Origin: a virus
IMG/VR virus record: IMGVR_UViG_3300032087_003621
Span: 82,378-146,377 of that record
Reading direction: 5' to 3' (one strand)
DNA: 64,000 bases
Numbering within the stretch: the first letter of the stretch is position 1; every line of letters starts with the position of its first letter. A program made the position numbers and the translations under genes. Positions 31,873-49,477 of the stretch are shown one piece after another. The notes beneath the pieces were generated by a model. That model was not told the DNA's origin and did not search any database. It worked only from the letters and a program-made list of their open reading frames with translations.

Positions 31873-31948
31873 GCGGGATTAGCTCAGTTGGTAGAGCGCA
31901 ACCTTGCCAAGGTTGAGGTCGTGAGTTCGAACCTCGCATCCCGCTCCA
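31873..31948 (+). tRNA. tRNA-Gly (anticodon GCC)
   Basis: A complete cloverleaf. Acceptor GCGGGAT/ATCCCGC, D arm with AGCTCAGTTGGTAGAGC, anticodon stem-loop around TTGCCAA (GCC, Gly), T arm with GTTCGAA, discriminator T and an encoded CCA end. It lies between the small gene and gp44 and probably belongs to the same transcript. It would read GGC and GGT codons, common in virion genes here. Confidence 0.97.
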
Positions 31949-45187: not shown

Positions 45188-45655
45188 ATGCACGAGTATA
45201 GATGTAAACTGGTTAAAGTTGTTGATGGCGACACTGTAGATGTTGACATTGACTTGGGTTTCGGAATCTGGTTAAAAGATGAACGTGTACGTATCATGGG
45301 AATCGATACACCAGAATCTCGTACAAGAGATAAAGTTGAAAAGGCGTTCGGTCTTGCCGCAAAGAAACGACTAAAAGAGTTACTTGGTAAAGAGTGTGTT
45401 CTCAAAACACAAGTTGCGAAAAACGGCGAAGATATGAAAGGTAAGTTCGGTCGAATCTTAGGTGACTTTACTGTTTACGATTTCAACAAAGATTCATGGC
45501 GTCCAGTTACCGAAGTCATGATTGATGAGGGCCATTGCGTACCTTACTTTGGTGGTAGTAAAGAAGAAGTTCAAGCACAACATATGATTAATCGTCGCCG
45601 ACTTATTGAAGAAGGCATCGTTGATATGACACTGGAGAAAGCTGGCCTTGTCTGA
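45188..45655 (+). CDS. Staphylococcal-nuclease-like (thermonuclease) protein
   Basis: A 155-aa OB-fold nuclease. VVDGDTVDVDIDLGFGI holds the first Asp and RVRIMGIDTPESRT holds Arg/Asp/Glu of the active site. The second arginine and GKFGRILGDF complete the set. No signal peptide, so it acts in the cytoplasm, perhaps on host DNA or RNA. Start directly follows the DUF3310 stop with a gaggtga ribosome site. Confidence 0.88.
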   Translation: MHEYRCKLVKVVDGDTVDVDIDLGFGIWLKDERVRIMGIDTPESRTRDKVEKAFGLAAKKRLKELLGKECVLKTQVAKNGEDMKGKFGRILGDFTVYDFNKDSWRPVTEVMIDEGHCVPYFGGSKEEVQAQHMINRRRLIEEGIVDMTLEKAGLV

Positions 45656-45665
45656 ATCTAATATA

Positions 45666-45827
45666 ATGTCGGCGAATACGACAATCGAATTGAAGTGTAA
45701 TTGGGATGGTGATTTTGAATTAATTGAACCAGATGGTACACTAATTACGTATAAACGTGAAGAATGGCATGAAGTTCAGAATCATCTTTTTTCTTTGGTA
45801 AGAGCCCCAGCTGGAGACCCTAAGTAA
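45666..45827 (+). CDS. Small hypothetical protein (53 aa)
   Basis: A 53-codon frame whose stop overlaps the ATG of the bL33-like gene (gtaATG). The sequence contains WDGDFELIEPDG and YKREEWHEVQ and looks like a folded small beta protein. A TTG at 45648, overlapping the SNase end, could add six residues. No family is recognised. Confidence 0.62.
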   Translation: MSANTTIELKCNWDGDFELIEPDGTLITYKREEWHEVQNHLFSLVRAPAGDPK

Positions 45828-46015
45828 TGGCTAGAAAAGACCTCGATGTGGTATATCTGATTCCCGAAGGACAAACAAGGGAATCGCACGATTACCACTA
45901 CACCGTTTACAAGAAACGTAAGCACCCCGAAAAATTTAGGATGAAGAAGTATAATCCTAAGTCTCGCAAACACGAGTGGTTTGTCGAAGTAAAAAAACCC
46001 CCTCATTCAAAATAA
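45827..46015 (+). CDS. rpmG: Ribosomal protein bL33 homologue
   Basis: A 62-aa very basic protein. Residues ~22-56 align with bacterial bL33: a YHYTVYKKRKHPEKF strand pair (compare F-Y-TTKNKR--PEKL), then MKKYNPKSRKHEWFVEVK (compare L-KYDPVVRKHV-YKEAK). The N-terminal KDLDVVYLIP takes the place of the usual IKLVSTA strand. bL33 binds the E-site side of the 50S subunit. The zinc cysteines of some paralogues are missing. Embedded in an early-type run of small genes with one-base overlap. It is probably built into host ribosomes; that is inference. Confidence 0.75.
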   Translation: MARKDLDVVYLIPEGQTRESHDYHYTVYKKRKHPEKFRMKKYNPKSRKHEWFVEVKKPPHSK

Positions 46016-46463: not shown

Positions 46464-46575
46464 TATACCAGTAAAGTTAGACCCGCCTTATGACGGGTTA
46501 TTTTATTGTCGTATTCGTGAAGGAATGTTTCGATGGCCAGAATTTATTTCATTTTATAGAAGGAAAAACCTATGA
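46444..46575 (+). CDS. Small hypothetical protein (43 aa)
   Basis: The ATG overlaps the end of the two-span membrane gene by 20 bases, and the stop overlaps the peroxiredoxin ATG by four (ATGA). The protein contains DPPYDGLFYCRIREGMFRWP. The tight coupling to the next gene argues that it is real. Confidence 0.58.
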   Translation: MVQTELDIPVKLDPPYDGLFYCRIREGMFRWPEFISFYRRKNL

Positions 46576-47120
46576 TTAAAAAAGGACAATCTCTACCCGA
46601 TGTAACTTTTCGTACTCGTGTAAGAGACGAATCAATTGAAGGACCTAACCCATATCGATGGGAAGATAAAACAACTGCCGATTATTTCTCTGGTAAGAGG
46701 GTGTTGTTGTTTAGTTTGCCCGGAGCGTTTACACCAACGTGTTCTACGTATCAGTTGCCTGGATACGAAAACAACTTTGGCGAATTCCAAAAGACGGGTA
46801 TCGATGAAATCTATTGTATGTCGGTAAACGATTCATTCGTGATGAACGCTTGGGCTAAAGACCAAAAATTAGAGAACGTCAAAGTAATTCCAGATGGTTC
46901 CGGTTTATTTACTCAGGGTGTTGGAGCTCTAGTGAGTAAAGATAATCTCGGGTTTGGTCAACGTTCATGGCGATATGCGATGGTTGTAAATGATGGTGTG
47001 GTGGAAGCAATTTTCCCTGAAGCGAGTCAACGAGATAATGCTGATGATGACCCTTATGAGGTTTCTACGCCAGAAAATCTTTTGGCATATTGTCAAAGTG
47101 CAGTAAAAGAGGTAGCATGA
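46572..47120 (+). CDS. Peroxiredoxin, Prx5 type
   Basis: A 182-aa thiol peroxidase. LPGAFTPTCSTYQLPGY contains the peroxidatic Cys (near residue 57) within the PGAFTPTCS signature of the Prx5/AhpE-like group; a WRYAMVVNDG strand and the helix lie further on. Such enzymes reduce H2O2 and organic peroxides with glutathione or thioredoxin. It starts an evident metabolic run and is coupled to glyA (ATGA overlap). It probably limits oxidative damage during infection. Confidence 0.9.
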   Translation: MIKKGQSLPDVTFRTRVRDESIEGPNPYRWEDKTTADYFSGKRVLLFSLPGAFTPTCSTYQLPGYENNFGEFQKTGIDEIYCMSVNDSFVMNAWAKDQKLENVKVIPDGSGLFTQGVGALVSKDNLGFGQRSWRYAMVVNDGVVEAIFPEASQRDNADDDPYEVSTPENLLAYCQSAVKEVA

Positions 47121-48286
47121 AGAAACTTGGCATGAACCCGACTCTTGTTAATTACATGAAGAAAGAGGCGGCAAGACAAGAAGATTATGCACAACTGATT
47201 GCTAGTGAGAATTTTGCTAGTGAAAAGGTGCGTGAGTTGTCTGGTTCTATTCTGACTAACAAGTATGCCGAAGGGTATCCGGGCGAACGATACTACAACG
47301 GGTGTGAATGGTACGACGATATTGAGTATCTTGCAATGCGAGAACTTCAGAGATGTTTTGATGAAGATTTCTTATGCAATGTTCAACCACACTCGGGTGC
47401 CAATGCCAATCTTGCAGTGATGATGGGTCTTCTGAAGCCAGGAGATACCATCCTCTCACTCAGTCTTGGCGATGGTGGACATCTGTCTCACGGACACAAG
47501 GTCAACATCTCAGGCAAACTATTCAACATCATTCAGTATGGTGTAGACTCACAAGGTTGGATTGATGAAGACCAAGTGGATATGCTTGCTGCGAAACACG
47601 AACCTAAGATGATTATCGCTGGTGCCTCGGCATATCCAAGAAGAATCAACTGGGAATTCTTTAACTTTATCGCAAAACGTGAAGGTGCTATCCTGCTTGC
47701 AGACATCGCACATTACTCAGGATTGATTGCTGGAGGCGTTTACCCTTCACCCTTTGGTTATGCCGATGTTATCACTTCAACGACCCACAAGACGTTACGT
47801 GGACCCCGTGGCGGAGTTATCATGTGGCAGGACGATAAGTATACCAAGAAAATCAATGGAGCTTTATTTCCTGGCACACAAGGTGGTCCGTTGATGAATC
47901 AGGTTGCTGCAAAGGTGCAGGCATTCTACGAAGCACGGCAACCAGAGTTTCGAGAGTATGCAAAGAACGTGGTAGACAACGCATGGGAAATGGCAGACGA
48001 GTTTAGGCGACAAGGAATGTATGTGGTGACGGACGGTACAGATAGTCATATTATTCTGCTTGACTTGAAAGAATATCAGGTGATGGGTTCTAAACTTGCT
48101 GACAGGTTAGAGCAGGACCACCAGATTGTGGTGAACAAAAACAGTGTGCCTGGTGACCCACTACCACCAAAATTCACTAGTGGTATTCGTATCGGTACTG
48201 CTGCTGAAACAACTAGAGGGAAAGACGCAGAGTGGTTTAGAGAAATCGCTCGTACAATTTCTAACGCAGTAATGGAGTTAGCGTGA
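47117..48286 (+). CDS. glyA: Serine hydroxymethyltransferase GlyA
   Basis: A 389-aa PLP enzyme converting serine and tetrahydrofolate to glycine and methylene-THF. Family blocks: QLIASENFAS, YAEGYPGERYYNGCE, VQPHSGANANLAV, DIAHYSGLIAGG, the PLP lysine in TTHKTLRGPRGG (near residue 225), FPGTQGGPLMNQ and TSGIRIGTAA. All catalytic parts are intact; it is about 25 residues shorter than E. coli GlyA because loops and the C-terminal helix are trimmed. It would provide C1 units for dTMP synthesis, and glycine. ATG 47117 is taken. Confidence 0.95.
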   Translation: MKKLGMNPTLVNYMKKEAARQEDYAQLIASENFASEKVRELSGSILTNKYAEGYPGERYYNGCEWYDDIEYLAMRELQRCFDEDFLCNVQPHSGANANLAVMMGLLKPGDTILSLSLGDGGHLSHGHKVNISGKLFNIIQYGVDSQGWIDEDQVDMLAAKHEPKMIIAGASAYPRRINWEFFNFIAKREGAILLADIAHYSGLIAGGVYPSPFGYADVITSTTHKTLRGPRGGVIMWQDDKYTKKINGALFPGTQGGPLMNQVAAKVQAFYEARQPEFREYAKNVVDNAWEMADEFRRQGMYVVTDGTDSHIILLDLKEYQVMGSKLADRLEQDHQIVVNKNSVPGDPLPPKFTSGIRIGTAAETTRGKDAEWFREIARTISNAVMELA

Positions 48287-48411
48287 TTGAGTGGGCAATT
48301 TATCTGAGCGTGGTTTATTTAATCACAATGTTCCCGTTTCATTTTATAATTTGGAGGCATAGAAAAAATGTTAAAAGTGATTCCGTTAATTCTGGTGCTA
48401 AGTTTGGTTAG
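48283..48411 (+). CDS. Possible tiny membrane protein (42 aa)
   Basis: A GTG overlapping the glyA stop opens a frame with one hydrophobic segment (WAIYLSVVYLITMFPFHFIIW) and a short basic tail. It runs 44 bases into the cytochrome gene. The frame fills the gap between glyA and the cytochrome gene but could be chance. Confidence 0.3.
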   Translation: MIEWAIYLSVVYLITMFPFHFIIWRHRKNVKSDSVNSGAKFG

Positions 48412-48790
48412 TGGATGTGACCCTAACAAAATTTTTGGTACTCGTGTTACACCCATGATGGGCCCAGACGATAATGATAAAGCCACGGTTGACTACACTT
48501 TGTTTAAACCCAGAGTTGTAATCGCTGGTGAAGCAGTTGAGGTAGCAGAGGTTGTTGCATTGCCAGGCGAGGCAAAGTATGCAGGTTGTATCGCTTGTCA
48601 TGGTATGAAGGGTGAGGGTGGTGTTGGTCCTGCACTACAGGGTCAAACTGCTGACTACATCAAACAACGTCTGGTCGCATACAAGAATGGAGAGCGTGTT
48701 GGTCGCCAGTCATCTATGATGTGGAGTCAGGCAGGTTTATTGAGTGACCTAGATATAGAACAGTTATCAGAATACATTGAGAGTTTATAA
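48368..48790 (+). CDS. Lipoprotein c-type cytochrome
   Basis: A 140-aa protein. A type II signal peptide with lipobox LVSGC (Cys17) is followed by an Asp, which in Gram-negative enterics keeps lipoproteins in the inner membrane. The C-terminal ~70 residues form a class I cytochrome c domain: YAGCIACHGMKGEGG (CxxCH heme site, residues ~75-79) and an axial Met in SSMMW (near 118). DIEQLSEYI ends the fold. Phage cytochromes are rare. It would feed or drain respiratory electron flow at the periplasmic face, needing host Ccm for heme attachment. Good ribosome site (tggaggc). Confidence 0.88.
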   Translation: MLKVIPLILVLSLVSGCDPNKIFGTRVTPMMGPDDNDKATVDYTLFKPRVVIAGEAVEVAEVVALPGEAKYAGCIACHGMKGEGGVGPALQGQTADYIKQRLVAYKNGERVGRQSSMMWSQAGLLSDLDIEQLSEYIESL

Positions 48791-49398: not shown

Positions 49399-49477
49399 CG
49401 GGGTGTAGCTCAGTCTGGTAGAGCACTCGCTTTGGGAGCGAGGGGTTTCGGGGGTTCGAATCCCTCCACCCCGACCA
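49399..49477 (+). tRNA. tRNA-Pro (anticodon TGG)
   Basis: A full cloverleaf: acceptor CGGGGTG/CACCCCG, D arm with AGCTCAGTCTGGTAGAGC, anticodon stem CTCGC/GCGAG around TTTGGGA (TGG, Pro), T arm with GTTCGAAT and encoded CCA. It reads CCA and other CCN codons, frequent in virion genes here. Confidence 0.97.

Follow-up and report, generated by a model that had tools for sequence, protein, structure and literature searches.

A bL33 ribosomal protein gene in a T4-like phage and its counterparts in SAR86 bacteria

The window analyzed here, which makes up the final 64 kb of a marine phage's IMG/VR record of 146,377 bases, contains a gene for a 62-aa protein (MARKDLDVVYLIPEGQTRESHDYHYTVYKKRKHPEKFRMKKYNPKSRKHEWFVEVKKPPHSK; 45827..46015, + strand, ATG start) that, by sequence profile and predicted fold, is a genuine ribosomal protein bL33. 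Its closest cellular relatives are an unusual type of bL33 that is found in part of the SAR86 order, in genomes where the ordinary bL33 type was not detected. On the strength of the sequence comparisons and the structural model, we consider it likely that the gene encodes a working bL33, and that the phage copy substitutes for the host protein on the large ribosomal subunit during infection.

The assignment to the bL33 family, which the preliminary description had proposed for residues ~22-56, is borne out by profile searches. Pfam family PF00471.26 matches residues 20-56 (E 2.9e-8, 34.4 bits, with a gathering score of 25) and TIGR01023 matches residues 1-56 (28.4 bits vs a cut-off of 23.95), so that both curated cut-offs are exceeded, the latter also by six relatives of the protein. 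The narrower NCBIfam subfamily models NF001860 (28.4 vs 50) and NF001764 (15.2 vs 40) were missed, and a PHROGs search identified no family for the protein. In a PDB sequence search, the best 41 of 53 matches were bL33 chains (top E 7e-5), and hhalign matched the alignment of the phage proteins to ordinary gammaproteobacterial bL33 with a probability of 96% and an E-value of 3e-9. The predicted structure points in the same direction. In the AlphaFold model (pLDDT 76.9), built on 37 relatives, there are four strands (residues 6-13, 25-30, 38-43 and 48-55) that agree with the small antiparallel sheet of bL33 structures, and the 50 PDB matches listed by Foldseek were all ribosome entries (probability 0.95-1.00), with TM-scores normalised by target mostly at 0.70-0.84; the single E-values were weak, at 0.03 or above, which would be anticipated for a chain of 62 aa. 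Of the two outcomes by which the preliminary description would have been refuted, a profile search without a bL33 hit and a predicted fold without the L33 sheet, neither occurred.

The part of the protein covered by the Pfam bL33 profile (codons 20-56; 45884..45994, + strand) carries the pattern KxxxKKYNPxxRKHxxFxExK in the Pfam and hhalign alignments. The hairpin between strands 1 and 2 was placed, by alignment and from the strands predicted at residues 6-13 and 25-30, at codons 13-24 (45863..45898, + strand; PEGQTRESHDYH); it is almost invariant across the phage group, and the SAR86 proteins have the same form, PEGETRDSHTYH. The C-terminal tail KPPHSK (codons 57-62; 45995..46012, + strand) extends past the canonical bL33 end in the alignments and is modeled with low confidence (pLDDT 41 at the C-terminal end). 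The N-terminus, previously thought to be longer than usual, is not: compared with a 55-aa bL33 such as L129, the additional residues are ~3 in the first hairpin and ~4 at the C-terminus. The absence of the zinc cysteines was correctly noted, the protein having no cysteine at all, but this is the ordinary proteobacterial (C-) form, represented by all 25 canonical gammaproteobacterial and SAR86 sequences checked, none of which contains cysteine; the zinc-binding CxxC pairs of the C+ form are not required of the family.

The gene belongs to a run of + strand genes. A probable Shine-Dalgarno site, GGAG, can be read 10 nt upstream of the ATG (45813..45816, + strand), and the stop codon of a preceding 59-aa ORF (45648-45827) overlaps this ATG (TAATG). 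As described before, it is flanked by genes for an SNase (45188-45655) and a peroxiredoxin (46572-47120), although more loosely, with small ORFs in between: the 59-aa ORF upstream and ORFs of 69, 81 and 43 aa downstream. Peroxiredoxin, serine hydroxymethyltransferase and a small cytochrome c-type protein are encoded consecutively at 46572-48790 of this T4-like phage; the serine hydroxymethyltransferase is ~52% identical to, and about equally far from, those of all Pseudomonadota sampled, and is uninformative on the host.

The T4-like character of the phage was confirmed by its capsid protein and DNA polymerase, which are, respectively, 61-67% and 49-56% identical to those of T4-like myoviruses, the nearest being Phage C48C1, the Methylophilales phages Melnitz, Pelagibacter phage HTVC008M and cyanophages. 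bS21, the one other ribosomal protein sought in the record, was not found, leaving bL33 as the only ribosomal protein found there so far. Five tRNA genes (Thr, Asn, Tyr, Gly and Pro) are present in the whole record, at 31873-31948 and 49399-49477 of the window and at 16816-17364 of L273. The core of the T4 late promoter, TATAAATA, occurs at 11 sites in the window vs 3.3 expected, 10 of these on the + strand, and is missing between 32915 and 53677, the interval that holds the bL33 gene, which is therefore probably not a late gene.

Genes of the same type as that in the window were identified in 24 IMG/VR contigs from many samples, with 77-100% identity and several gene orders. Selection on these genes is evident from the pattern of substitutions: all 8 nucleotide differences between the window gene and that of L003 are synonymous, the comparison with L005 gives pS 0.37 and pN 0.007, and the mean pN/pS over all pairs of phage genes is 0.11, with the true value being lower because pS is near saturation. 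Thus, the phage bL33 is under strong purifying selection. It also outlasts its neighbors. In L034, bL33 is 90% identical and the neighbors found by BLAST are 39-85% identical; in L044, with bL33 at 82%, the DNA polymerase of the same record reaches only 31-34%, and no other window gene was matched in place within 12 kb of bL33, the one further match being an antisense shadow of bL33 itself. This persistence suggests either exchange of the gene between phages or very strong constraint. Among cultivated phages, tblastn detected no convincing bL33 relative (best matches at E about 0.8). These best matches come from entries labeled 'Acinetobacter phage MD-2021a' (CAKLQH020000005.1 and related), annotated with rpmG and ilvI, which look like a bacterial chromosome filed as a phage.

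When the SAR86 protein was used as the query, 30 further viral contigs with this type of bL33 were found (L183-L212), most of which share the hairpin form and carry the tail PPHSK or PRHTK. The window capsid was not found in 14 records of this second group, and these phages are, for that reason, probably not close relatives of the window phage, although the 14 records are fragments. Near bL33 in the second group there are, among others, helicase and primase genes of phage type (L206). In one 119-kb viral contig (L209:2491-5684), bL33 is flanked by Hsp20 and by ClpS, SufB and a SufC-like ABC ATPase, so that genes for protein quality and for Fe-S clusters are combined in one phage. No SAR11-type bL33 was found in viral contigs with the SAR11 protein as the query. 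Overall, this type of bL33 is carried by at least two phage lineages, and probably by more.

The best cellular matches to the window protein are from SAR86 (63-66% identity) and SAR11 (about 50%) and extend over the full length, whereas other Gammaproteobacteria match over the core alone. The SAR86 proteins (for example, L058, CP097968.1) have both the PPHSK tail and the long PEGxTRxSH hairpin of the phage protein, and the SAR11 protein (L122, HIMB114) has the tail in common with it, so the idea that hairpin and tail are a phage-specific redesign was rejected. The cellular proteins differ from the phage bL33 by about 3-4 extra residues in the loop before EK, and their genes are chromosomal and single. 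A further bL33 group, with the PPHSK tail and an otherwise divergent sequence, is present in the Alphaproteobacteria L158, L161 and L162, which suggests that the tail predates SAR11.

The two bL33 types are mutually exclusive in SAR86. Among 81 genomes of the order, 30 have the phage type (L213-L241 and L128), 38 have the native type (among them L242-L271), and none has both; neither type was found in the remaining 13, which may reflect incomplete genomes. A complete SAR86 chromosome contains a single PF00471 gene, of the phage type. The native SAR86 protein is an ordinary gammaproteobacterial bL33 (59-65 bits), and its gene, rpmG, directly follows rpmB in the native-type genomes sampled. The phage-type gene, in contrast, stands alone, next to either a RidA-family gene or a cytidylyltransferase-like gene, and in all 8 phage-type genomes checked, rpmB is kept but rpmG is gone behind it. 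In G001 and G931, maf comes immediately after rpmB, whereas in L242 the order is rpmB-rpmG-maf. The most likely history is therefore that part of SAR86 has lost its native rpmG and that a bL33 of foreign type has taken its place. No publication on this split was found in the open-access literature.

Two directions of transfer would account for this exclusivity: these phages may have acquired bL33 from their hosts, perhaps repeatedly, or a core ribosomal gene may have been displaced by one of phage origin. In a tree based on 65 columns, ordinary bL33 sequences, including the ordinary SAR86 copies, are separated from the phage/SAR86/SAR11 type (100/97), the phage group of the window forms a single clade (99/92), and the phage-type SAR86 copies are placed among the second phage group. 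AU tests on the same columns did not reject monophyly of the phages (p 0.29) or of SAR86 (p 0.35). The two chromosomal places in SAR86 fit two arrivals, or one arrival followed by a later move. We tentatively entertain, as a serious possibility short of an even chance, the scenario in which a phage bL33 that had spread over several unrelated marine phage lineages replaced the native gene in part of SAR86, with rpmG lost from the rpmB-rpmG operon and the phage-type gene residing at two other places. Such a virus-to-cell transfer would have altered a core component of the ribosome in one of the most abundant groups of marine bacteria. The type of bL33 that a phage carries could also aid host prediction for these uncultivated phages; for the window phage, bL33 is the sole link to SAR86.

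The cellular relatives also bear on function. In 30 SAR86 genomes, no bL33 was detected other than a protein 63-66% identical to that of the phage, so the phage-type protein probably functions as a true ribosomal protein. During infection, the phage bL33 would compete with the host bL33, or make it good, on the large subunit, at the site where bL33 contacts the E-site tRNA, and ribosomes made or refitted in infection would then carry the phage copy. Mizuno et al. 2019 count bL33 among the weakly attached ribosomal proteins that can pass from one ribosome to another (PMC6375957); this should make such a swap easy. Candidate benefits are that 50S subunits would be kept complete during the shut-off of host synthesis or that the release of the E-site tRNA would be tuned.

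Alternatively, the phage protein might inhibit or select once it is inside the ribosome, with the changed hairpin and the PPHSK tail affecting the E-site in a way that slows host translation or gives phage mRNAs an advantage. There are precedents for this in bS21: one phage version was incorporated into the ribosomes of E. coli and left about 5% of in vitro translation (PMC6375957), and phage bS21 has been proposed to favor phage transcripts (PMC9723584). However, the same hairpin form and tail occur in the sole bL33 of free-living SAR86, and the tail also in SAR11, so these elements do not poison translation on their own, and we regard an inhibitory role as unlikely. A role away from the ribosome, in RNA binding or regulation, is less probable still: the gene is remote from other translation genes, and small basic ribosomal proteins often have extra roles, but the conserved core of bL33 is retained in full, and there are cells in which a close relative is the sole bL33 detected. 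Finally, phages acquire host genes by chance, but a recently captured, functionless host gene or an assembly artefact is very hard to reconcile with the 24 contigs from many samples, the several gene orders and the almost purely synonymous change; a chance ORF or artefact was rejected by the profile scores and the independence of these contigs. Substitution for the host bL33 on a functioning ribosome thus remains the reading that we prefer.

A bL33 gene in a phage, which the preliminary description had presented as a further case of ribosome takeover, is already known. Mizuno et al. reported bL33 in more than 10 uncultivated aquatic viral contigs, with at least two virus-host transfers, and found viral ribosomal proteins to be under purifying selection, with an average pN/pS of 0.10, and phage bS21 and bL12 to be detectable in E. 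coli ribosomes; the available text of that study describes neither a SAR86 link nor a replaced host gene (PMC6375957). A bL33 gene is also carried by the cultivated Microcystis jumbo phage PhiMa05, described in a 2026 paper, but there it is one of six ribosomal proteins in a 274-kb cyanophage and was traced to Vampirovibrionia (PMC13157829), whereas the record studied here is that of a 146-kb T4-like phage with bL33 as its sole ribosomal protein found so far. The phage bS21 of Pelagibacter phage HTVC008M, a T4-like relative of the window phage by its capsid, and of lake phages is likewise a copy of an exchangeable ribosomal protein in phages with large genomes; it is, however, a different protein, of the small subunit and involved in initiation, and is expressed late with structural genes (PMC9723584), whereas the window bL33 has no late-promoter core match nearby. 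The window gene adds to the known viral bL33 as a clear and conserved case in T4-like phages.
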